In this document: positions 12,497-58,781 of the stretch, piece after piece
Layout: every line of letters starts with the position of its first letter
Position numbering within the stretch: position 1 is the stretch's first letter
The notes under the pieces: model-generated
Told to the model about the DNA's origin: nothing
Databases searched by the model: none
The model's input: the letters and a program-made list of their open reading frames with translations, nothing else
Position numbers and translations under genes: made by a program
Origin: an uncultured Gemmatimonadota bacterium
GTDB lineage: Bacteria; Gemmatimonadota; Gemmatimonadetes; Gemmatimonadales; Gemmatimonadaceae
Direction of reading: 5' to 3'
Length of the DNA: 64,000 bases
NCBI GenBank assembly: GCA_903882745.1
Contig: CAIRYG010000003.1
Coordinates: 1-64,000 of the forward strand

Positions 12497-15436
12497 TCAG
12501 AATCCGAAGCGAAGAGTGAGAATAAAGCTGCGGGGGCTGCTTTCCGTAGCGTAGTTATATCCGCCAACGGCTGCGCCACCCTGCGTGAGGGCCGACGACA
12601 GGTCCGTCTCAGGATCGAAGCTTGAGGCGGCCCACCGGTACGGGTTGGTAACGGAGAACGACATCCGCATATCCTTCGCCAAGCTGGGGAGGAACTTGCT
12701 GGGGACGCGGTAATCCGCCGTAATCGTGCGGACGGACACGTAGTCAGATTTCTCCACCCACAGGTTCATGACCTGCTGCCAGATGGCTGCGCGGCTTCCG
12801 TTGTACGGGGCCTGCGCGAGCGCTGCCGCCGGCACGTAGCCGTCGGTGCCCGCCACGCCATACAGGTAACGGAAGGCACGGTCAAACGACTGCGTCTGGC
12901 CGCCGAACTGATAGTCGGCACTCATGCTCAGCGTAAAGCGCGAACCGATACCAAGCTGCGCACCGAAGCTTCCGAACTCGTCGGGCATCGGCTTGCCGAG
13001 GTATGCGAGCTGCTTGATCTCCGTGATCTTGCCCGTGGCATCAAAAATCGCGTTGGCACCGCGCAGGAAACCCACGGGGTAGCCTTCCTGTACCATGCCC
13101 TGCACCGTGCTCGCACCATACCCGCTGATGGCGAACGGCGGCGTGCCGCCGAGCTTCATCACCTTGTTGTGGAGCGTGTTGAAGGACGCGTTGAGCGACA
13201 ACCGGTACATCGGGGTGTTGATCGGCGTCACCGTGGCCCGCAGCTCGAGTCCGTCATTCGCAATTTCGCCGACGTTTGTGATCTGGCTGACTTCGCCAGT
13301 CGACGGCGACGGCGGCGCATTGAGCAGCGCGTCCACCGTGCGGGACGAGTACCAGCCGAGTCCCATCGTGATGCGCTCTTGCAGGAACGAGAGATCGACC
13401 CCGACTTCTGTGGTGCCCGTACGTTCCGGCTTCAGGTTGCGGTTGCCCGGCTGGCCGAACGTCGCCGCCTGCTGGCCGTTGAACGAGTTGATCGTTACCG
13501 TCCGGTCATTGGCGAACGGCTGCGGGAACTGTCCCGCCACACCGTAGGCCGCGCGCACGCGCACATCCGAGAGGTACTTCTCGGTGATGATCTTGCGCAG
13601 CCAGTCTTCGTTGCCCAAGGCCCAGACTAGCCCGACCTTCGGGTACGTCTGCGCGCCGGTGTTCGCACCGAAGGCCGTGTTCTTGTCCAAACGAACGCCG
13701 AGCTCAACCGTGTACTTCTCGCGCCAGCTGATGTTGCTCTGGCCGTAGATACCGTAGTTGGCCACGCGGTACGCCAGATCTGTGGACGCGGTCACACCGG
13801 CACCAGCCAGCGTCTCCTGCCCGTCGCGCACGTTGGTGGCGGTGTACTGCACCTGCACGTCGTCATTGCGGAACAGCTGCGTTCCGACCGACGAGATCAC
13901 CGAGAGGTCGTTCCCGAACGACGCGGTGTGCTGGGCGCCCGCTTCGAGCGTGAAGCCCGTGAAGGATCGCTCGTAGTTCGAGATTGAGCCGCGATCGGTG
14001 GTGCCGGCGGGATACGCCTTGGTCGCGATCAGGAACTCGTTGGTGACAATCGCCCGCTCTTTGCTGAAGCGATTATTGACGCCAAAGGTGACGTGAGCCT
14101 TGACCGACGGAAACGGGTCAAAGTCCAGCCGCTGTGACGTTTGGAAGGAGCGCGTAAACACGCGGTTGTTCTGCAAGCGCTCGGCGTTGTTCACGAAGGT
14201 CTTGAGCGCAGCCGCGTCGGTCGCGTTCAGGCTGTCGATGTTGTTGTTGAACCCGAAGGCCGACGAACGGCCCGACTCCAACACCCAGAGCGACGTGTAT
14301 CCGCCCGCGTTGCCATTTCGGAAACGCGGCGTGTCCGTTTCGTTGTACGAAAACGACCCCTGGTACTTGCCCTTGTTGCCGACGTTGGCGCCAAATGCGG
14401 TGCGGAAACCAAAGGCGGTGTTGTCGCCATACACACGCTGGGTCTCGCTCGCCCGCACATTGCCGGACAAGCTGTACGTAAACCCGTTCGTGCCGCCCTC
14501 GATGCCCGCCGAGTATTGCTGCGTGCGGCCATTCCGGTAGATCAGGTCCTTGGTGGCCTTGAAGAAGTCGAACTGCGTCTGCGGTGTGTCGTACCCATCG
14601 CGCGCTTCGAAGTACACCTTCGGGGCGCCGGCGGCACCGCGCTTGGTAAAGATCTGCAGCACGCCGTTGGCGGCATCAGAACCGTAGAGGGTGGTGGCCG
14701 CACCGCCGGGGATGAACTCCACACGGTCGATGTTATCCATCGGAAGGTCGGCGATCGCGCTCGTCGCCGCACCCTGCGCACGCACACCCGAGACGTTCAT
14801 GCCAAGCGTCGCGATGGTGTTGAGGTTGTCCATCCGCACGCCGTCGACGTAGATGACCGGCGTGGAGTTGTTGCTCACCGACGTCACGCCACGGGTGCGC
14901 ATAATGGACGTCGTACCGACCTGGCCCGACGTCATGCGCACCTGCGCGCCCGGGAGCGTGGTCTGCAGCAACTCGTCCAAGCGCTTGGCTGGCGAGGCTT
15001 CAATCACTTCTCGGCTGACCACGTCGACCGTGGTGGCAATGCGGCGCTTGGAGATTTCACCGCCCTGGCCCGTCACGACGACGGCGTCAAGGTCGAGCGG
15101 ACGCACGGCGAGCGACACATTGACCGTCGCCGTCTGCCCCGCAACAACCGTGACGGTTGCGGTCTTCACCGCGTAGCCAATCATGCGCACTGTGACGGTC
15201 CGGCTACCAGCCGGCACGTCGATGAGGCGGTACTGACCGTCTTGGTCAGACCGCGCCGAACGGTCTTTGGTATCAACCATCGTGCTGATCTGCGCGCCAG
15301 GCAGTGCGACACCAGAGCGGTCGTCTGTCACCTTACCGACAATGGTTCCGCCGGCTTGTGCGAGGGCTGGCGTGGCCTGCCCCAGCGCCGCCAACATCGC
15401 GATACATACCAGGGGCCATCGAAAACGTTGTTGCAT
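12497..15436 (-). CDS. SusC/RagA-family TonB-dependent outer-membrane receptor
   Basis: This is a 979-residue receptor. Residues 1-26 are a signal peptide. About 30-110 is a carboxypeptidase-regulatory-like domain (GTIVGKVTDDRSGVALPGAQ). About 120-260 is the plug (LDAVVVTGQGG, then TPVIYVDGVRMDN and GAATTLYGSDAANGVLQIFTKRG, typical of SusC). The rest is the beta-barrel, ending FILTLRFGF with a terminal aromatic. The ATG at 15436 has GAGG 7 nt upstream. It heads a tightly packed operon with SusD, the P1 peptidase and the MBL hydrolase and would import their substrate using TonB energy; no tonB/exbBD is in the window. Confidence 0.93.
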   Translation of the reverse strand: MQQRFRWPLVCIAMLAALGQATPALAQAGGTIVGKVTDDRSGVALPGAQISTMVDTKDRSARSDQDGQYRLIDVPAGSRTVTVRMIGYAVKTATVTVVAGQTATVNVSLAVRPLDLDAVVVTGQGGEISKRRIATTVDVVSREVIEASPAKRLDELLQTTLPGAQVRMTSGQVGTTSIMRTRGVTSVSNNSTPVIYVDGVRMDNLNTIATLGMNVSGVRAQGAATSAIADLPMDNIDRVEFIPGGAATTLYGSDAANGVLQIFTKRGAAGAPKVYFEARDGYDTPQTQFDFFKATKDLIYRNGRTQQYSAGIEGGTNGFTYSLSGNVRASETQRVYGDNTAFGFRTAFGANVGNKGKYQGSFSYNETDTPRFRNGNAGGYTSLWVLESGRSSAFGFNNNIDSLNATDAAALKTFVNNAERLQNNRVFTRSFQTSQRLDFDPFPSVKAHVTFGVNNRFSKERAIVTNEFLIATKAYPAGTTDRGSISNYERSFTGFTLEAGAQHTASFGNDLSVISSVGTQLFRNDDVQVQYTATNVRDGQETLAGAGVTASTDLAYRVANYGIYGQSNISWREKYTVELGVRLDKNTAFGANTGAQTYPKVGLVWALGNEDWLRKIITEKYLSDVRVRAAYGVAGQFPQPFANDRTVTINSFNGQQAATFGQPGNRNLKPERTGTTEVGVDLSFLQERITMGLGWYSSRTVDALLNAPPSPSTGEVSQITNVGEIANDGLELRATVTPINTPMYRLSLNASFNTLHNKVMKLGGTPPFAISGYGASTVQGMVQEGYPVGFLRGANAIFDATGKITEIKQLAYLGKPMPDEFGSFGAQLGIGSRFTLSMSADYQFGGQTQSFDRAFRYLYGVAGTDGYVPAAALAQAPYNGSRAAIWQQVMNLWVEKSDYVSVRTITADYRVPSKFLPSLAKDMRMSFSVTNPYRWAASSFDPETDLSSALTQGGAAVGGYNYATESSPRSFILTLRFGF

Positions 15437-26862: not shown

Positions 26863-27600
26863 ATGAGAATCGCACACGCGCTGTATCTCGTGTCAGCCGC
26901 CGCTGGGCTGTTGCTCGCCCGCCCGGCCCACGCGCAGGACGCTCGCACCGTCGTACTCCGCTTCCGGAAGGCGGGCGACACGGTCGCTATTCGCAACGCG
27001 CAGATTACGATCGATCACACTATCGAGGCCGGGAACACCGACTCGCTCGGCATGATCAGCATTCCCGATCTCGATGATGGTGGCCATATCGTCGAGGCGG
27101 TCGCGCGCGGGTACCAGGCGTACTTCGACAAGTTCAAGAGTGGACCGAACGAGCGCATGCCGATCGAGCTCGAGATTCTTGCCGTTGAAGTGGCGATGAA
27201 ACCCAAGGGACAGCCAACAGAGCTCGCCGCGGCTGGCTTTGATCAACGGCGCACAAAGGCGCAGGGCAAGTTCTTTACCCTCGCGCAGCTCAAGGCTGCC
27301 GGCGGCCGTCCGCTCGCCAATCTGCTCAAAATCGACGCCGGTGCAGGCATCGCAACGGGACCGCGCGGGGAGTCGTTTCTCGCCTCCGGCGCTGCGCCAA
27401 CTCCGGGCGCTCCCTGCTACGCCACCGTGATCCGTGACGGGCTTCGGGTCTATCCGTTTGAGAGCGCTGCACCGCCGGACCTCGATAAGATCTTCACCGA
27501 TGATCTCGCGGCTGTTGAGCTGTACCCACGTGGTGCAGTCGGGCCCGCCGAACTGAAGGATGCCTCGAGCTGCGGCGCACTGGTGCTCTGGAAGCGGTAG
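26863..27600 (+). CDS. Exported regulatory-domain plus plug-like protein without a barrel
   Basis: The 245-residue protein has a signal peptide (residues 1-25, ending AHAQ). Residues about 28-110 resemble a carboxypeptidase-regulatory-like beta domain (IRNAQITIDHT, DSLGMISIPDL, VARGYQAYF). The rest resembles the end of a TonB-receptor plug: LANLLKIDAGAGI, YATVIRDGLRVYPFE, DDLAAVELYPRG, and a final CGALVLWKR. No transmembrane barrel follows; the gene ends at the point where a barrel would begin. A second protein of the same design is at 56827-58242. It may be an exported binding or adaptor protein. The function is unknown. A bidirectional terminator follows. Confidence 0.72.
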   Translation: MRIAHALYLVSAAAGLLLARPAHAQDARTVVLRFRKAGDTVAIRNAQITIDHTIEAGNTDSLGMISIPDLDDGGHIVEAVARGYQAYFDKFKSGPNERMPIELEILAVEVAMKPKGQPTELAAAGFDQRRTKAQGKFFTLAQLKAAGGRPLANLLKIDAGAGIATGPRGESFLASGAAPTPGAPCYATVIRDGLRVYPFESAAPPDLDKIFTDDLAAVELYPRGAVGPAELKDASSCGALVLWKR

Positions 27601-44895: not shown

Positions 44896-47619
44896 TTAGA
44901 AACGGATATCGACGCGGCTGTAGATGTAGCCGCCATCCGTGCTGTACGGGGAGTTACGCGAGTAAATGAGGCCGCGGAATGCTTGGTACTGCGACTTGTC
45001 GGGGTACGTGTTCAAGATGTTTTCTGCGCCAACCTTGAGATCGAGGTGCTTGCCCAGCGAGACATTCGCCACCACGTCGTGGAACGTCATCGGGCTAAAT
45101 ACCTGCGGGTTGTACGTGGGGTAGGTCGTGCCTGGGGTCGCGGTCGCGGGGAATGCATCGGTCCAATCCGACCACGATCCGTAGTAGCGCGAGCGGAACG
45201 TGAGATCGACGCCGCCGAGTTTGTATGATGCGGAGAGGGTCGCACGCTGCGCCGGCAACGACTCCTCAGTCAGCTGCTTGGCGTACGGATTCACCGATCG
45301 CGAGCCGCCGGTGATATGCGTCTCGAGATAGCTGAGCGCCGCCGTCAGCGTCAGCTCTCCCGCTCCAACGCCGCGGGTATTGTAGACGGTCACGAGATCC
45401 AAGCCACGATTCCGCGTGTCGTAGTCGTTCTGCAGGAAGTTCGCGGAATAAATATCCTGAAGGTTCGGGATATGCAGCGCCGTCAATGCCGCGTTCTCGG
45501 CGGAGGTCAGCACATAGGACGTGCTGGTGTTCAGGCGATGTGCGATGTCAATCTGATACGCATCCAACGTGGTCTGGAGTCCGAATCCACTCTCCCACAC
45601 AAGCCCCGCCGAGAGGTTGTTTGACGTCTCGGGCTCGAGCGGCTTGATGTTGACCCCCGTGCGCTTGTTCAAGAGTTGCGCGACTGCTCCCACCGGGCTG
45701 AAGCGCCCCGTGGTCGTGATCGAGGCCGTAGCGCTCGGCAGGAACTGTGAGAGTCCTTCGCTGTACACCTGCGCGGTGGTCGGCGCGCGGAATCCCGTCG
45801 ACACCGTTCCGCGCAGCGCGAACTGCGAGGTGAGCGCCAAGCGCGTGCCGAACTTGTACGTCAGCGACTGCCCAAAGGTCGAGTAGTGCTCAAAGCGCGT
45901 GGCCGCACCGACATCCCAACGCTTCGTGATCGGCAAGTCGAGATCGGCGTAGACCGCCTGACTGCTCTGGTCGTGCGAGCCGGCGTTGACCGGCGCATAG
46001 CCCGGAAACCCACTCGAGCAGCAGGGCAGCGCCGGCGAGCCGTACGCGCCAGGACCGAACGTGTACGACGCCAGCTCACCGGCGATGATTTCAAAGCGCT
46101 CGGTGCGATGTTCCGCGCCAAACGACAAGGCGCCAGGCTTCGTCGGCTCGAACAGCTTGACCGGCAGCGAGCCATCGACGTTGATGTTCATTTCGGTCTG
46201 ATCAACGGCACCGTCGTCAAAGCTCGTGGGGCTGTTCGGCCCGAGCGAGGCGTTGATCGAGTTCGTCATGAAGTAGCGAATGTGGTTCTTACCGGTCCCG
46301 ACACTCAGGTCGAGCTTGAGACCACTCGCCCGTTCCGTTTTCACGCCGGCGACAAGACTGAGGTCCGTGTCATGACTGCCGAAGTGCGGCGTGAAACCCG
46401 CCGGATAGAGCGACAGCAAGTTCCAACCCGGGAACACCGTACTTGTCTTGAAGACGCTTGCATACGAACCCACTGGGCCACGGTAGTTGAAGTCGCCGAC
46501 ACCGGTGCCCCAGCCGTATGTGCCGAACGCATAGAGCGATACGTTGCCCAGGTTCTGCCCCGCCGTCACGGCGAGACGCGTCGCTTCACGGTCCGGCTTG
46601 CCCCAGTGTACCGCAGGGCTCGGGAATACCACGCTGGGATATGCAGCCTGCGAGGACGCGGCGTTGGTTCCCTGCACCGCGCGGGACGTATACCCCGACT
46701 TCGTGTATTCGCCGGTCAGCGCAAAAAATCCATTGGCCGAGCGAAACCCACTGTGGAGCCCAACACGCGGGCCTGCGCCGTCGCCAGCAAACTGCTGACC
46801 GAACTGCGCGAAGGTCCGGAATCCCGCACTCTCATCGAGGTTCATGTTGATCACACCGGCGATCGCATCCGACCCGTACTGCGCCGCCGCACCGTCGCGC
46901 AGCACATCCACGGACTTCAACGCCGAGTTCGCGATCTGATCAAGATCCGGCGCTTGGAAGGCACTGCCGTAGCTCGGGTTCATCATCATCGCCGACCGAT
47001 GCATGCGCTTGCCGTTGAGCAGCACCAGCGTCTGATCCGGCGACAGGTTCCGCAGCCGCGCTGGCCGGACGAAGATGGTCGCGTCGAGTGCAGGAAGGGT
47101 TTGCACGTTGAAGGAGGGCACGAGACTCGCGAGCGTTTCCACGAGTTCGGCTTGCCCCGTCCGCTCCATGACATCGCTCGCAATCACATCGACCGGCGCG
47201 ATGCTCGTGAGCGATGTGCGAGGCTCGGCGCGCGATCCCACCACCGTCATCTGATCCAGAAACCGCGCACCGAGAGCACTCAGGGTGAAGTCGAGCGTGA
47301 CCGGAGTGTCCGACTTAATGAACACGCTGTCGCGGGTCACGACCTGAAGGCCGAGCTTGCGCACCGTCAGTGTGTACGGCCCGCCAACGGCGAGCGAGGT
47401 AATGGCGTACCGTCCGTCCGCCCGCGATTGCACGCTGACGCTGGTTCCGGTCGACTTTAAGGTGGCGGTGACACGAACCTCCGCGATCTTCGCTCCGTCC
47501 GGACCCGTGATTGAGCCCGCGACGGTCCCCACGGCTGGGACTTGTGCAATCAGCGCGGCGGCTGGAACCGCGAGCGAGAGGAGGACACCGACGACTGGTC
47601 CGAGATGCTTCGTTTTCAT
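44896..47619 (-). CDS. TonB-dependent outer-membrane receptor
   Basis: The 907-residue receptor has a signal peptide (to about residue 25), a carboxypeptidase-regulatory-like domain (GTVAGSITGPDGAKIAEVRV), and a plug with PVDVIASDVMERTGQAELVETLASLVPSFN, DQTLVLLNGKRMHRSA and VDVLRDGAAAQYGSDAIAGVINMNL. The beta-barrel ends GGYIYSRVDIRF. The plug form (RDGAAAQYGSDAIAGVIN) is that of receptors for siderophores, cobalamin or other small ligands rather than SusC. A CC pair (LPCCSSG) lies in an outer loop. It is upstream of the ApbE-DUF2271 and PepSY genes, suggesting iron-chelate import linked to flavin-based reduction. The Met at 47619 starts the signal peptide. Confidence 0.92.
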   Translation of the reverse strand: MKTKHLGPVVGVLLSLAVPAAALIAQVPAVGTVAGSITGPDGAKIAEVRVTATLKSTGTSVSVQSRADGRYAITSLAVGGPYTLTVRKLGLQVVTRDSVFIKSDTPVTLDFTLSALGARFLDQMTVVGSRAEPRTSLTSIAPVDVIASDVMERTGQAELVETLASLVPSFNVQTLPALDATIFVRPARLRNLSPDQTLVLLNGKRMHRSAMMMNPSYGSAFQAPDLDQIANSALKSVDVLRDGAAAQYGSDAIAGVINMNLDESAGFRTFAQFGQQFAGDGAGPRVGLHSGFRSANGFFALTGEYTKSGYTSRAVQGTNAASSQAAYPSVVFPSPAVHWGKPDREATRLAVTAGQNLGNVSLYAFGTYGWGTGVGDFNYRGPVGSYASVFKTSTVFPGWNLLSLYPAGFTPHFGSHDTDLSLVAGVKTERASGLKLDLSVGTGKNHIRYFMTNSINASLGPNSPTSFDDGAVDQTEMNINVDGSLPVKLFEPTKPGALSFGAEHRTERFEIIAGELASYTFGPGAYGSPALPCCSSGFPGYAPVNAGSHDQSSQAVYADLDLPITKRWDVGAATRFEHYSTFGQSLTYKFGTRLALTSQFALRGTVSTGFRAPTTAQVYSEGLSQFLPSATASITTTGRFSPVGAVAQLLNKRTGVNIKPLEPETSNNLSAGLVWESGFGLQTTLDAYQIDIAHRLNTSTSYVLTSAENAALTALHIPNLQDIYSANFLQNDYDTRNRGLDLVTVYNTRGVGAGELTLTAALSYLETHITGGSRSVNPYAKQLTEESLPAQRATLSASYKLGGVDLTFRSRYYGSWSDWTDAFPATATPGTTYPTYNPQVFSPMTFHDVVANVSLGKHLDLKVGAENILNTYPDKSQYQAFRGLIYSRNSPYSTDGGYIYSRVDIRF

Positions 47620-51315: not shown

Positions 51316-54300
51316 GTGCGCTCCTGGCGTCTGACTCTTCTGTTCGTCTTTTCCCTGTTCATCGGTTCCGCCGCCCAACTTGGCGCGCAGACGGTGGACG
51401 TGATCCGCGGCCGAGTGACCGGCCCCGACTCTGCGGCTATTCAAGGGGTGCGCGTGGTCGTCACCTCGCTCTCCGGCGCCGTGAACCGCGAGGCCCGTAC
51501 CGACCGCAATGGCCGGTTTACTGTGACCTTCCCGAACGGGGAGGGCGACTACTTCGTCACCTACACCTACCTCGGCTACGCCCCGCGCCGCTTTGAGATC
51601 AAGCGCGCCGCTGATGAGGATATTCTCATTGCCGATGCGCGCATGTCGAAGACCACGGAGCTCGACGCCATGCGCATCAGCGCACCGCGCGACAAGGTGA
51701 ACCGCGTGGAAGCCAATGCGGACATCTCCGGCACCGAGAAGACAGCGAGTGTCTCGGCGCTCTCGGCGGCTGACATGGGCAATCTTGCGGCGATGGCGGC
51801 ATCGCTCCCGGGCGTGACGCTTGTCCCGGGTGCCGATGGCGATCCGTCGGGCTTCTCGGTGCTCGGCCTCTCGGCGGACCAGAACAGCACGACGCTCAAC
51901 GGCCAGAACTCGAGCGCGTCGGACTTGCCACGCGACGCGGCGTTGTCGGTGAGCTTGAGCACGGGCACGTATGACGTGTCGCGCGGTGGATTCAGCGGCG
52001 GCCAGTTGAGTGTGCGCACGCGGTCGGGCACGAACTTCAAGATCCGCACCATGAGCTTGAACCTCGACGCGCCGCAGTTGCAGTGGACCGATGCCGCGGG
52101 ACGCGCGCTCGGCCAGCAGTACACGAACATTTCGCTCGGCGGCTTGGCCTCGGGCGCCTTTACGCTCGACAAGTCGTTTTACTCGGTCTCGTACCAGCTC
52201 GGCCGCCGTTCGAATCCGCTGTCGACGCTGTTGAACATGGATCCGCTCGCGCTGCAGACGACGGGTGTCTCGGCCGACTCGGTGACGCGCCTGCTCGGCA
52301 TCTTGGCGCTCAAGGGGATCCCGACCACGGTCGGGGCTGCGCCGTCGAACAAGCTGACCGACTCCGGCTCGCTGCTGGGCACCTTTGATCTCACCCCGCC
52401 GACGTCGTTCAGCGGCACGGCGCTCAACCTCACGATGAACGCGTCGTGGAACAAGGCGTCGCCGGTGTCGAACCTGCAGACGGAGATGCCCGCGCACAAC
52501 GGCGAGCGTACGACGGTCAACGGTGGCATTCAGGCCCGTCATTCCGGCTATCTCTTCTCGCTGCTCCTGAGCGAGTCGACCGTGGGCTACAATACGTCGC
52601 GCAACGCCTCGGACCCGTACTTGCTCGACGCCAGCGGTTCGGTCCGCATCAACAGCACCTTCGCCGACGGCACCAACGGTTTGAAGACAATCTCGTTCGG
52701 CGGAAGCCCGAACCTGAACTCGTCGAATCAAACGTCGAGCACGCAGTTCACGAATCAGCTCTCGTGGTTCAGCGAGAACAACAAGCATCGCGTGAAGCTC
52801 TCCACCGAGTTGCGTCGTGACAGCTATGACCAGGACGCCACCACGAACGCACTGGGCAGCTTTAGCTTCAACTCGCTGACCGATCTCGCCAACGGCACGC
52901 CGGCGTCGTTCACGCGCTCGCTCTCGCCGCGCACGCGCAATGGCAATCAGATTGTTGGCGCTATGGCGCTCGGCGATTCGTACCGCCAGAGCCAGGAATT
53001 GCAGATTCAGTACGGCGTGCGTGTCGACGGCAACCAGCTCTCGGCCACCCCTGCGCTGAACTCCGGGATCCAGTCGCTGTACGGCGTGGCAAACAACTAT
53101 GTGCCGAATCGTTTGTATGCGAGCCCGCGTATCGGGTTCGCCTACACGTACGGCACGTCGCAGCAGATCCCCGGCTTCGAAGGGGCGTTCCGCGGTCCGC
53201 GTGCGGTGATCCGCGGCGGTATCGGCCTCTTTCAGAACACCCCGGCCACCACCCTCATGACGAGTGCGGTCGACAATACTGGCTTGCCTGGTGCGGTGCA
53301 GCAGGTGACCTGCGTCGGCGTTGCCGCGCCGTCGCCGGATTGGCAGGGCTATCTCAGCCATTCCTCGTCGATCCCGAACAGCTGCGCCACCGGCGCTGGC
53401 AGTTCTGGCTTTAGCAGCACGGCTCCGAACGTCAGCATGTTCGCGAAGGATTACGAAGCCCAGCGCAGCCTGCGCGCGAACATGAACTGGGCGGGCCCGA
53501 TCCTGAACAATCGTTTCTCGGCAACGTTCGACGTAACCTACTCGAACAACATGAACCAGCCCGGGAACGTCGACCTGAACTTCCTGCCCACGACGCAGTT
53601 CAGCCTTGCCAGTGAGGGTGGACGTCCCGTGTTTGTCGCGCCGGCCAGCATTGTGGCAACCTCTGGCGCCATCTCGGCCGCCGGATCGCGCGTCTCGTCG
53701 CTGTACAATCGCGTCAACCAGGCGCGGTCGGATCTGCGCTCGGAGAGCAAGCAGTTCACGGTGCGCCTTTCGCCGGCGACCTTCTCGACCACCTGGTCGT
53801 GGAGCGTGAACTACGTGTTCTCCGATGTGCAGGAGCAGGTGCGTGGCTTCACCAGCACGGTGGGCAATCCGCTCAGCGTGGACTGGTATCGCTCGGCCAA
53901 CGCGTCGCGCCATCAGATTGTGTACTCGCTTGGCTACAACTTCTTCGATGCCGTCCGCGTGACCTGGAACGGCAACGTGCGCTCGGGCAACCTGTTCACC
54001 CCGATGATTTCGGGTGACGTGAACGGCGACGGTTACTCGAACGACCGCGCCTTTGTGCCGAACCCGGCGACCGCGACAGATCCGGCACTCGCCGCCTCCA
54101 TGACGCAGCTGCTCGCGTCGGCGACTGGCAATGTGAAGAGCTGCCTGCAGAACCAACTCGGCGCACTGGCCACGCGGAATAGCTGCGAAGGCCCGATGAC
54201 GCACACGGCGAACATGCAGATCTCGTTCAACCCGCTCAAGCTCGGGTTGCCGCAGCGCGCGATCATCTCGTTCAGCATCTCGAACCCGCTTGGCGCGGCC

Positions 54301-55107: not shown

Positions 55108-56691
55108 ATGACACGCAAGCATATCTCGATGGCCGCGCTCGCTTTGTGCGTGTGCGCCGTGCAGTCTGTGAAAGCGCAGGACCCGATGCCGGAAAACACG
55201 CCGGCCAGTCAGCTCCCGCCAATCAAGCCGTTGGGCGCCGTCTTCGCGAAGTCCAAGGAACTGCTTGGCTCCGTCTCAGCCGTGCGTTCGTTGCCGGGTG
55301 GAAAGGTCCTCGTAAACGACATCAACGGCCGCAAGGTCGTGCTATTTGACTCGACCCTCGCGACCACCACGCTGGTCGCGGACACGACCAGTGCAACGGC
55401 CAACGCCTACAGCTCGCGCGCTGGTGGCCTGATTCCGTGGAAGGGTGACTCCACGCTGTTTGTCGATCCGTTGTCGCTCTCGATGCTGGTGATTGATGGC
55501 AAGGGGAACATCACGCGGGTGATGTCGGTCCCGCGCGCCAACGATGTGAACCTGCTGATTGGCGGACCGAACGGCACGCCAGGCACCGACGCGTCGGGAC
55601 GCTTGATTTATCGCGGCACTCAGGGGCGCGGTGGTGGTGGACGTGGCCCCAACGGCGCGCAGCCCATCCCGACGCCCGCGCGTGCCGGTGGCGCTGGCGG
55701 TGCAGCAGCGACGGCATCGACCGCCGGACTGCCCCCCGGCATGGCCCCGCTTCCGGGTCAGACGACGGCAGCCACGGCAAACACCGGCAACAATCGTGGT
55801 GGGGGTGGACGTGGCTTTGGTGGCGGCGCGCAGCCGGATTCGGCGCCGCTCGTCCGCTTCGACCTGATGTCCCGCAAACTCGATACGATCGCCTTTCTCA
55901 AAGTCCCCGTGAGCAACGTACGCGTGGCGCAGGGGGATGACGGCCGGATGAATATGCTGGTGACGGTGAATCCGCTCCCAGTGGCTGACGACTGGTCGCT
56001 CTTGGCCGACGGATCGATCGCCGTGGTGCGTGCGCGTGATTATCACGTGGATTGGGTTCGCGCGAACGGTACAAAAGATGCGACCGGCAAAACGCCGTTC
56101 GATTGGAAGCGGATGAGTGAGGACGAGAAGTCGGCGTTCCTCGACTCGACCAAGGCGTCGCTCGAGAAGTTGCGGGCTCAGGCCGCGGCTGGTGACCAAG
56201 CCGGTGCGGCAGCTGCCGCCGCGGCGGCCGGCATCTCGGGAATCCCGGGACTCAACATGGGTGGTGGCGGTGGTGGTGGTGGTCGCGGAGGTGATACCGG
56301 CGGCGGCGGCCGTGGCGGCCGTGGTGGTGGCGACACCGGCGGCGGGTTCGGTGGCGGTGGTGGTGGATTCGGCGGCGGCGGACGTGGTGGGCGAGGCGGC
56401 GTTGAGCTCCAGCCAATCAACATGGTCTCGCCAAACGAGATGTCCGACTATGTACCGCCCTTCACCCCGGGCGCTGCACTCGGTGATGCCGACGGCAACC
56501 TCTGGGTGCGCACAACGCGCGGGATCAATGGCGGCTCCATTTACGACGTCATCTCGCCAAAGGGTGAGTTGCTCAAGCGCGTCGGCATGCCCCCGGGACG
56601 TGTCATCTCTGGCTTCGGCACGGGCGGCATCGTCTACATGGGCGTGCGCGAAGAAGGCGGCGTGCGACTCGAAGCGGCACGCGCGCCGTAA
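55108..56691 (+). CDS. Exported Gly-rich propeller-like protein
   Basis: The 527-residue protein has a signal peptide (to about residue 24). Its ordered parts read like beta-propeller blades: LLGSVSAVRSLPGGKVLVNDINGRKVVLFD, LFVDPLSLSMLVIDGKGNI, DDWSLLADGSIAVVRARDYHVDW, and ALGDADGNLWVRTTRG followed by DVISPKGELLKRVGMPPG. Three Gly/Arg-rich inserts interrupt it (near nucleotides 55622-55650, 55795-55830 and 56255-56400); the last is over 40 residues of mostly Gly, Arg and Asp. No enzyme motif is seen. It probably works with the upstream Oar-like receptor at the cell surface. The ATG at 55108 is preferred over the TTG at 55096. A terminator follows. Confidence 0.72.
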   Translation: MTRKHISMAALALCVCAVQSVKAQDPMPENTPASQLPPIKPLGAVFAKSKELLGSVSAVRSLPGGKVLVNDINGRKVVLFDSTLATTTLVADTTSATANAYSSRAGGLIPWKGDSTLFVDPLSLSMLVIDGKGNITRVMSVPRANDVNLLIGGPNGTPGTDASGRLIYRGTQGRGGGGRGPNGAQPIPTPARAGGAGGAAATASTAGLPPGMAPLPGQTTAATANTGNNRGGGGRGFGGGAQPDSAPLVRFDLMSRKLDTIAFLKVPVSNVRVAQGDDGRMNMLVTVNPLPVADDWSLLADGSIAVVRARDYHVDWVRANGTKDATGKTPFDWKRMSEDEKSAFLDSTKASLEKLRAQAAAGDQAGAAAAAAAAGISGIPGLNMGGGGGGGGRGGDTGGGGRGGRGGGDTGGGFGGGGGGFGGGGRGGRGGVELQPINMVSPNEMSDYVPPFTPGAALGDADGNLWVRTTRGINGGSIYDVISPKGELLKRVGMPPGRVISGFGTGGIVYMGVREEGGVRLEAARAP

Positions 56692-56826: not shown

Positions 56827-58242
56827 ATGCGGCTCCGAACTCTGTTTCTCGCGATGCTGTGCGCGTGCGTCGTGGACGCGCAATCGGCGCGCACCACCGT
56901 CCGTGGCGTCGTGCGCGACAGTATTTCCCACCGACCGCTCGCTGCCGCCACGGTGCAACTGGTAGCACCCGATACCCTTGCCGCGTTTGGTCGTACCGCC
57001 ATCTCCGACTCCCTCGGTCGTTTCACGCTGACCGATGTCGCAGACGGCCGCTACATGATCGGGTTCTACCATCCGCTGCTCGACTCCCTCGGCGTCGAGC
57101 CGCCACCACGCACGGTGCGGGTGGAGGGGCATCAGTCAGTCAGCATTGATCTCGCAACACCGTCGCCGGAGAAGATCCGCGCTGCGGTGTGTGGCGTGCG
57201 CGCGGTGACAGACTCTGCGGCACTCCTGATGGGTGTCGTGCGCGACGCGAAGACCCTCACACCGGCGAGTGGTGTAAAGGTCGCGGGCGAATGGCTTGAG
57301 CTTGCGTTCCGCCCCGATGGCGTCCAACGGCACCAACCGCGCTTGATCGCAACCACAGGAGACAATGGGTGGTTCGCTATCTGTAATGTGCCCCGTTCCG
57401 GCACGATGTTTTTGATCGCGAGTCGCGGGGCCGACAGTACCGATATGATTGACGTGCAGATTCCCGCCGAAGGGTTTCTGCGTCAGGAGTTATTCCTTGG
57501 TCCGTCTCGAAAACGTGCCGTAGCAGCCGTCTCGCGTGCCGACAGTGCGGCGGCAACGCCGCGGACGATTCGGGTAGGTGACGAGCGATTGAGCGGTACC
57601 GTATTGATTGCGAACGGCTCACGCCCCCTCGCGGGAGCACAGGTGCGTGTCGCGGACGGCGATGCGGCGCGCACGAACGAACGCGGGGAATGGACGATCA
57701 CGGATGCGCCCGCTGGCACGCGCACGCTCGAGGTGCGAGCGATCGGCTATTACCCCGAACGGAGAACCGTGGACATCTTCGACGGAAGCGCGCCGGTACG
57801 CGTCACCCTCTCCACGTTGAAAGCTGTCTTGGATACGGTTCGAATCTCCGCGTCTCGTGTGCGCTATGGGAGCGACCGGAGCGGCTTTGAGCAGCGGGCG
57901 CGGACCGCTGGCGTAGGTCGGTTTATCACCGCCGACGACATCAAGCGCCGCCCGGTAACAAATGCGTCGGATGTCTTCCGCCTGATGCCTGGAGTACGTC
58001 TCGAGCGTGATAGTTCGGGATTTACCAAACAACTCCAAGTGCGGGGGATGATGGCGGACTGGTGCACCCCGTCGATCTACCTCAACGGCGGGTTCATGAG
58101 TGGATTCGACGCCGACGAGATTGATGCGATGGTTCAACCCGAGCAGATCAAAGGAATCGAGATTTACACAGGCCCGGGAATCCCCGCGGCCTTCCAACGA
58201 GGAATGACGGGATGCGGCAGTATCGTGATCTGGACGCGCTGA
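56827..58242 (+). CDS. Exported regulatory-domain plus plug protein without a barrel
   Basis: The 471-residue protein has a signal peptide (to about residue 20). Three carboxypeptidase-regulatory-like segments follow (VRGVVRDSISHRPLAAATV, LMGVVRDAKTLTPASGVKV, LSGTVLIANGSRPLAGAQV). Then a TonB plug: LDTVRISASRVRYGS, FITADDIKRRPVTNASDVFRLMPGVRLE, LQVRGMMADWCTPSIYLNGGFMSG, VQPEQIKGIEIYTGPG, and a final MTGCGSIVIWTR. The gene stops where the barrel would start. It has the same plan as the protein at 26863-27600. Two Cys (W-C-T and G-C-G) could form a disulfide. It may be an exported ligand-binding or adaptor protein. The ATG at 56827 starts the signal peptide. Confidence 0.8.
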   Translation: MRLRTLFLAMLCACVVDAQSARTTVRGVVRDSISHRPLAAATVQLVAPDTLAAFGRTAISDSLGRFTLTDVADGRYMIGFYHPLLDSLGVEPPPRTVRVEGHQSVSIDLATPSPEKIRAAVCGVRAVTDSAALLMGVVRDAKTLTPASGVKVAGEWLELAFRPDGVQRHQPRLIATTGDNGWFAICNVPRSGTMFLIASRGADSTDMIDVQIPAEGFLRQELFLGPSRKRAVAAVSRADSAAATPRTIRVGDERLSGTVLIANGSRPLAGAQVRVADGDAARTNERGEWTITDAPAGTRTLEVRAIGYYPERRTVDIFDGSAPVRVTLSTLKAVLDTVRISASRVRYGSDRSGFEQRARTAGVGRFITADDIKRRPVTNASDVFRLMPGVRLERDSSGFTKQLQVRGMMADWCTPSIYLNGGFMSGFDADEIDAMVQPEQIKGIEIYTGPGIPAAFQRGMTGCGSIVIWTR

Positions 58243-58781
58243 TACGACGTCTTGGTATGGGTGTCGTGTTCGCAACGGCGGTGGCGCTGCCCACGCGCGC
58301 GGTGGCACAAGCGCCCGCGCTCGCTGGAAGCTGGACCCTCGTGTCACGCCTCGACAGCGGCACCGCCGGCACCACCGGAATCCGCGGCACCCTGCCCGCC
58401 GACGGGGCACTCGGGGCAGATCCGATTTCGTTTCTCACGTACGACACCTTCGGCAATGTGTCGGCGCAACTCATGGCGCGGCGGCGCACGGCAGAAATTC
58501 CCAAGCCGGCGGCGTCTACACAGTCAGACCCCAACAACAGCGCTCCCTCGGGTGGCTACGATGCCTATTTCGGGCATTACACCGTCGACGTCGCTGCCGG
58601 GACGGTCACACACGAACTCCTTGGCGCACTTGCCCCTGCCGACGTCGGCAGAAAGCTCACGCGGCATTTTGTGTTGGATGGGGACGTGCTGCGCCTCTGG
58701 TTCGAGACGACGCGTGCCGATGGCACTCCAGTACGTCGCACCCTCACGTGGAACCGCGTGCGCGAGCGGCCTGGCGCATAA
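58212..58781 (+). CDS. Exported lipocalin-like-domain protein
   Basis: The 189-residue protein has a signal peptide (hydrophobic about 15-33, AVAQAP), then LAGSWTLVSRLDS, DPISFLTYDTFGNVSAQLMARRR, GGYDAYFGHYTVDVAAGTVTHELLGAL and LTRHFVLDGDVLRLWFETTRADG, the pattern of the lipocalin-like DUF (Lipocalin_5) with a GSWxL start. It probably binds a small hydrophobic ligand in the periplasm. The start at 58212 has GAGGA 8 nt upstream and overlaps the plug-like gene by 31 bp, implying coupling; the Met at 58257 is possible. Its stop abuts the stop of the convergent CcdC-like gene with no base between. Confidence 0.82.
   Translation: MRQYRDLDALIRRLGMGVVFATAVALPTRAVAQAPALAGSWTLVSRLDSGTAGTTGIRGTLPADGALGADPISFLTYDTFGNVSAQLMARRRTAEIPKPAASTQSDPNNSAPSGGYDAYFGHYTVDVAAGTVTHELLGALAPADVGRKLTRHFVLDGDVLRLWFETTRADGTPVRRTLTWNRVRERPGA

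Follow-up and report, generated by a model that had tools for sequence, protein, structure and literature searches.

We found that the gene at positions 56827–58242 of the window (the whole 64 000-nucleotide stretch of uncultured Gemmatimonadota DNA analysed here) encodes a TonB plug without a barrel. The protein, W57, has the domain order of a SusC-like transporter that ends exactly where the barrel would be expected to start, and it belongs to a family of barrel-less plugs with an invariant pair of cysteines. This family is large and looks previously undescribed; paper searches found no description of barrel-less or stand-alone plugs. The gene, its parts and two other genes of the window discussed below are:

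56827–58242, + strand: W57, barrel-less plug protein; 471 aa, complete open reading frame from ATG to TGA
56827–56880, + strand: signal-peptide-like N-terminus (sequence pattern only), cleavage at about VVDA/QS
56887–57171, + strand: transthyretin-like (CarboxypepD_reg) domain 1, residues about 21–115 (Pfam and AlphaFold2 model)
57214–57504, + strand: transthyretin-like domain 2, residues about 130–226 (structure model)
57577–57825, + strand: transthyretin-like domain 3, residues about 251–333 (Pfam/fold search)
57829–57852, + strand: TonB-box-like linker LDTVRISA between domain 3 and the plug, predicted disordered
57886–58239, + strand: plug domain, F354–R471 (Pfam Plug match at 57925–58179)
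58063–58065, + strand: invariant cysteine 1, C413 (sequence and family alignment)
58213–58215, + strand: invariant cysteine 2, C463, within the terminal motif CGSIVIWTR
58257–58781: Lipocalin_5 protein, the next gene after W57 (Pfam E 2.8e-16)
26863–27600, + strand: W27, a smaller family member of 245 aa; one N-terminal domain and a Cys-pair plug, ending SCGALVLWKR

The N-terminus of W57 reads MRLRTLFLAMLCACVVDA ahead of QSA, a signal-peptide-like pattern, and the stop codon follows directly on TGCGSIVIWTR. Pfam scored the plug (PF07715, residues 367–451, E 1.3e-11, above the curated cut-off) and two stretches of CarboxypepD_reg (E 3.7e-24), against three transthyretin-like domains in the AlphaFold2 model (about 21–120, 130–226 and 251–334). 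In the fold search, the third of these resembled the N-terminal extension domain found in SusC transporters: Z was 12.2 for 9hfj, over 79 residues, and 9.9 for 6ytc. The original prediction had described three regulatory-like domains and a TonB plug ending at the start of a barrel, in an intact exported protein with a normal stop, and both the modelled domains and the open reading frame bear this out. Among the Pfam matches of W57 with E ≤ 1 there is no STN domain, and a TolA/TonB-like C-terminal domain is likewise absent. Two further cysteines, C122 just before domain 2 and C187 inside it (window 57190–57390), are conserved in the orthologues L028–L030 and likely form a second disulfide. The upstream gene at 55111–56688 encodes a protein that looks exported, contains long runs rich in Gly and Arg, and matches no Pfam family.

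Because the fold search with the whole model was filled by transthyretin-like domains, the plug of W57 was folded alone (AlphaFold2 on an input alignment of six sequences; mean pLDDT 75.5, pTM 0.71). The predicted structure has the plug fold: it matched FepA (1fep) with a Foldseek E of 8.2e-7, probability 1.00 and TM 0.60, and also matched chains of Fiu, Cir, OprC and SusC. At the sequence level the domain is 31–33% identical to the plugs of FepA, PirA and IroN.

The C-terminal 22-stranded beta-barrel that follows such plugs in transporters is absent from the W57 chain, which stops right after the plug. Beyond 58242, the window region gave no match to the TonB-receptor barrel model PF00593 or to the Oar-type model PF25183; within the window, matches to these barrel models above cut-off are confined to the chains at 12905–14380, 45016–46542 and 52447–54222. 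A barrel in another frame just downstream was looked for as well, and none of the three frames holds a barrel-sized continuation. The next gene encodes the Lipocalin_5 protein, in agreement with the earlier claim that a different protein follows and that the ending is no frameshift truncation. Without a pore, W57 cannot transport.

The lack of a barrel extends to the relatives of W57. None of the 95 Cys-pair plug members from sampled Gemmatimonadota genomes carries one, and in 92 of them the chain ends no more than 35 residues past the terminal tryptophan. The family signature, which W57 fits, is C-x3-[VIL]-x-[LIV]-[DN]-G ... E-x-Y ... P ... CGx[IVL][VLA][IVL]W, followed by a stop or a non-barrel tail. 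The CG..W motif occurs in all 95 members and the first cysteine in 94; the remaining member (L040) lost its first cysteine to a local-alignment cut, and its full match has two. Spacing between the cysteines is 47–59 residues in 76 of 77 members. Moreover, in a 55-row plug alignment, drawn mostly from a set filtered at < 45% pairwise identity, five positions (C60, E92, P100, C110 and W116 in plug numbering) never vary, and Y94 is kept in 54 rows. With the two cysteines and the tryptophan unchanged across rows this divergent, the shared ending goes far beyond chance. The idea in the original prediction that CGSIVIWTR marks a real family was right, and the family is larger than was thought. That prediction did not mention the other invariant cysteine, which completes the pair, the linker resembling a TonB box, the paralogues across the genome or the fusions to TonB C-terminal domains described below.

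These plugs form one clade under strong purifying selection. The 55 family plugs fall on one side of a branch that separates them from transporter plugs (SH-aLRT 99), and the split persists when the signature columns are removed (SH-aLRT 98). A comparison of W57 with its closest relative, L028, gives 39 synonymous but only two non-synonymous changes in the linker and plug (dN/dS 0.012 there; 0.075 overall), so that W57 is not decaying.

In the window's own genome, paralogues were sought with a profile built from four plugs combined with a Pfam search. We counted 12 barrel-less plug chains against 22 with > 400 residues past the plug (or running off the fetched locus). The cysteine pair is present in 11 of the 12 and in none of the 22 barrelled plugs (Fisher p 4e-8), which contain no cysteine anywhere in the plug. 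All 11 family chains carry the invariant cysteine pair (C...YLDG and CGxIVIWT[K/R]). W27, which has no Pfam match of its own, was recovered by the family profile. The twelfth barrel-less plug (L023, G000:C3:110624–110764) is of another type: it is a half plug of ~114 aa that covers only the latter half of the Plug model and ends GGVVLIVTK, and while it lacks a barrel like W57, it has no cysteines in its plug part.

Among 200 Gemmatimonadota genomes the family profile matched at least 156, covering at least 66 of 93 genera, often in many copies and with a maximum of at least 19; no more than 20 candidates were scored in any genome, which makes these counts lower bounds. Members range from about 240 to 830 aa with varying numbers of transthyretin-like domains, and one with three domains, from the cultured species Gemmatirosa kalamazoonensis, ends GCSVVLVWTRQ. 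Tandem pairs or triples are common (L029, L092, L047, L104, L107), which points to local duplication. The profile gave weak matches only when run on 199 Acidobacteriota genomes (≤ 44 bits, in frames of 457–1160 aa); nearly all of these end ahead of CGxIVIW, and the loci with a readable plug end are ordinary transporters. A one-protein scan of genome contigs, too insensitive to exclude other phyla, returned three full relatives, all from Gemmatimonadota, and a CarboxypepD match from Acidobacteria.

What might hold such a plug together? Cysteines in the plug domain always come in even numbers (two in 89 members, four in five), and 57 of the 59 chains with a recognizable signal peptide have an even cysteine count in the mature chain; in the two chains with odd counts the start seems to have been misassigned. 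The genome also encodes VKOR, a disulfide maker in the envelope. On this pattern, C413 and C463 of W57 very probably form a disulfide, which would tie the start of the YLNG strand to the start of the terminal IVIW strand. According to a review (PMC11658791), the FepA plug behaves like an unfolded protein when isolated, and engineered intraplug disulfides in FepA block transport. For a plug with neither a barrel to hold it nor a pore to open, an invariant pair of cysteines is readily understood: where a plug is normally folded only with its barrel, the disulfide of W57 would take over the role of the barrel.

Two lines of evidence link the family to TonB. First, 25 of 94 family linkers contain a match to [DE]T[VILM]x[VIL]x[AG], where shuffles would give 0.55, and box-like matches almost always begin 14–20 residues ahead of the FExR anchor of the plug. 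The box-like segment of W57, LDTVRISA, recurs in relatives as LDTVRVTA and LDTVRIIA, and the family boxes resemble those of transporters in the same genome (LDTISVVA in L002, LDAVKVTA in L027). In many members, however, the candidate box matches the pattern poorly, and the motif may be an inherited linker. Second, three long-tailed family members end in a TonB C-terminal domain (TonB_C). A profile for the fusion of transthyretin-like domain, Cys-pair plug and TonB_C matched 75 of 395 genomes in 19 genera, all within the window's taxonomic family and four in its own genus; the window's own genome, with three TonB_C genes, has no such fusion at the cut-off used. The both-cysteine pattern with an in-frame tail was found in 20 of 25 fetched fusion loci, and all 19 tails scanned matched PF03544. 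The repeated occurrence of this fusion across genera strongly hints at cooperation between the free plug and TonB. Natural plug–TonB_C fusions from the window's taxonomic family include L110, L113, L089 and L145–L169. Four fusion matches (G172:C2:263811–264518, G578:C200, G432:C80 and G403:C26) contain one in-frame stop each; they may be pseudogenes, stem from errors in assembly or reflect reading on beyond the stop of a shorter chain.

The reading that we favour, to which we give about an even chance, is that W57 is a disulfide-held, soluble periplasmic plug coupled to TonB. It would descend from a SusC/TonB-dependent transporter of which the N-terminal half remains, with the transthyretin-like domains, the TonB box and the plug, and the exported protein would engage TonB as an adaptor or regulator. 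We infer TonB binding, the periplasmic location and the adaptor or regulator role alike. No recurrent partner gene was found around family members (~40 loci, 178 heterogeneous neighbours), and Lipocalin_5 was not seen beside the relatives L029 or L030. A bolder version, which we regard as unlikely though not far-fetched, is a relay in which a pool of disulfide-locked, pore-less TonB clients, together with plug–TonB_C chains that are client and energizer at once, would pass on or compete for TonB force between TonB and the true transporters.

Alternatively, the free plug could act without TonB, as a periplasmic ligand catcher whose weak ligand surface makes it a soluble binding protein or chaperone for imported substrates. 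An isolated FepA plug does still bind ferric enterobactin at 5 uM (PMC11658791), and many divergent paralogues per genome would suit many ligands. We consider this rather improbable, as the conserved C, E, Y, P, C, G and W look structural, unlike a ligand site, and the TonB-box pattern and TonB_C fusions are left unexplained. The fusions are also hard to explain, and the retention of the box pattern far above shuffles is not expected, if W57 is an envelope scaffold in which the transthyretin-like domains and plug are merely stable modules and the box a leftover linker; the variable number of transthyretin-like domains and the lack of a conserved partner gene would fit such a scaffold, which we think improbable.

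There is a precedent for a barrel-less receptor derivative signalling to an inner-membrane regulator, namely VreA (PA0674) of the Pseudomonas aeruginosa PUMA3 signalling system, which joins a receptor-derived STN signalling domain to a TolA/TonB-like C-terminal domain (PMC2729926), a pairing reminiscent of the plug–TonB_C fusions. A cell-surface-signalling role of this kind nonetheless seems quite improbable for W57: the receptor-derived part of VreA is an STN domain and not a plug, and sigma and anti-sigma genes are not among the most frequent families in the 178 neighbours.

Given that the plug fold is retained, W57 might instead be a spare plug docking in trans into a barrel from another gene. 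Two long Oar-like barrel chains of the same genome have no Pfam Plug match and are possible partners (G000:C3:215015–215701 and G000:C14:162862–164799). The former lies ~2 kb from a family member (L037). Yet all 18 PF00593 barrel chains above cut-off in this genome have a plug of their own, intraplug disulfides block FepA transport (PMC11658791), and a barrel anchor is mostly lost. The basic residue of IEVL[RK]G, which we take to be the plug–barrel anchor of the FhuA R133 type, is present in 12 of 16 own-genome transporters vs. 11 of 55 family members, with Thr in W57. Docking in trans is thus very improbable. Finally, although W57 corresponds to no more than the N-terminal half of a transporter, a frameshifted or truncated transporter, a decayed relic or a sequencing artefact can be rejected with near certainty given the absence of a downstream barrel remnant, the 94 further intact members and the low dN/dS against L028 (0.012 in linker and plug).

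Whether a plug can fold or act outside its barrel has been an open point, given the unfolded state of the isolated FepA plug (PMC11658791). Genomes with many free Cys-pair plugs offer natural material on plug folding, on TonB-box binding and on whether TonB pulls on anything that is not a transporter. There is also a practical consequence. Gemmatimonadota are abundant in soil, and automatic naming of family chains as ‘TonB-dependent receptor’ would overcount the transporters of this phylum.

Compared with known systems, W57 shares export, a TonB-box-like linker and the plug fold with TonB-dependent transporters (SusC/RagA, FepA, Cir, Fiu; PF07715), and with SusC (9hfj, 6ytc) also a transthyretin-like N-terminal extension ahead of that linker. 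The family differs from them in having no beta-barrel, an invariant cysteine pair, a Tyr in place of Leu/Val in the IEVL strand, a terminal Trp and, in most members, no barrel-anchoring Arg/Lys. The nearest described analogue is VreA, which is likewise barrel-less, mostly soluble and exported (PMC2729926). Its C-terminal TolA/TonB-like domain recalls the fused sub-branch of the W57 family; in contrast, W57 has no such domain and has a plug in place of STN, no cysteine-pair family has been described for VreA, and the sigma and anti-sigma genes adjoining VreA do not recur among the frequent neighbours of the W57 family. As for TonB itself, its C-terminal domain (PF03544), which W57 lacks, ends the fused sub-branch of the family, and in these chains a transthyretin-like domain and a Cys-pair plug take the position that the transmembrane helix and spacer have in TonB.
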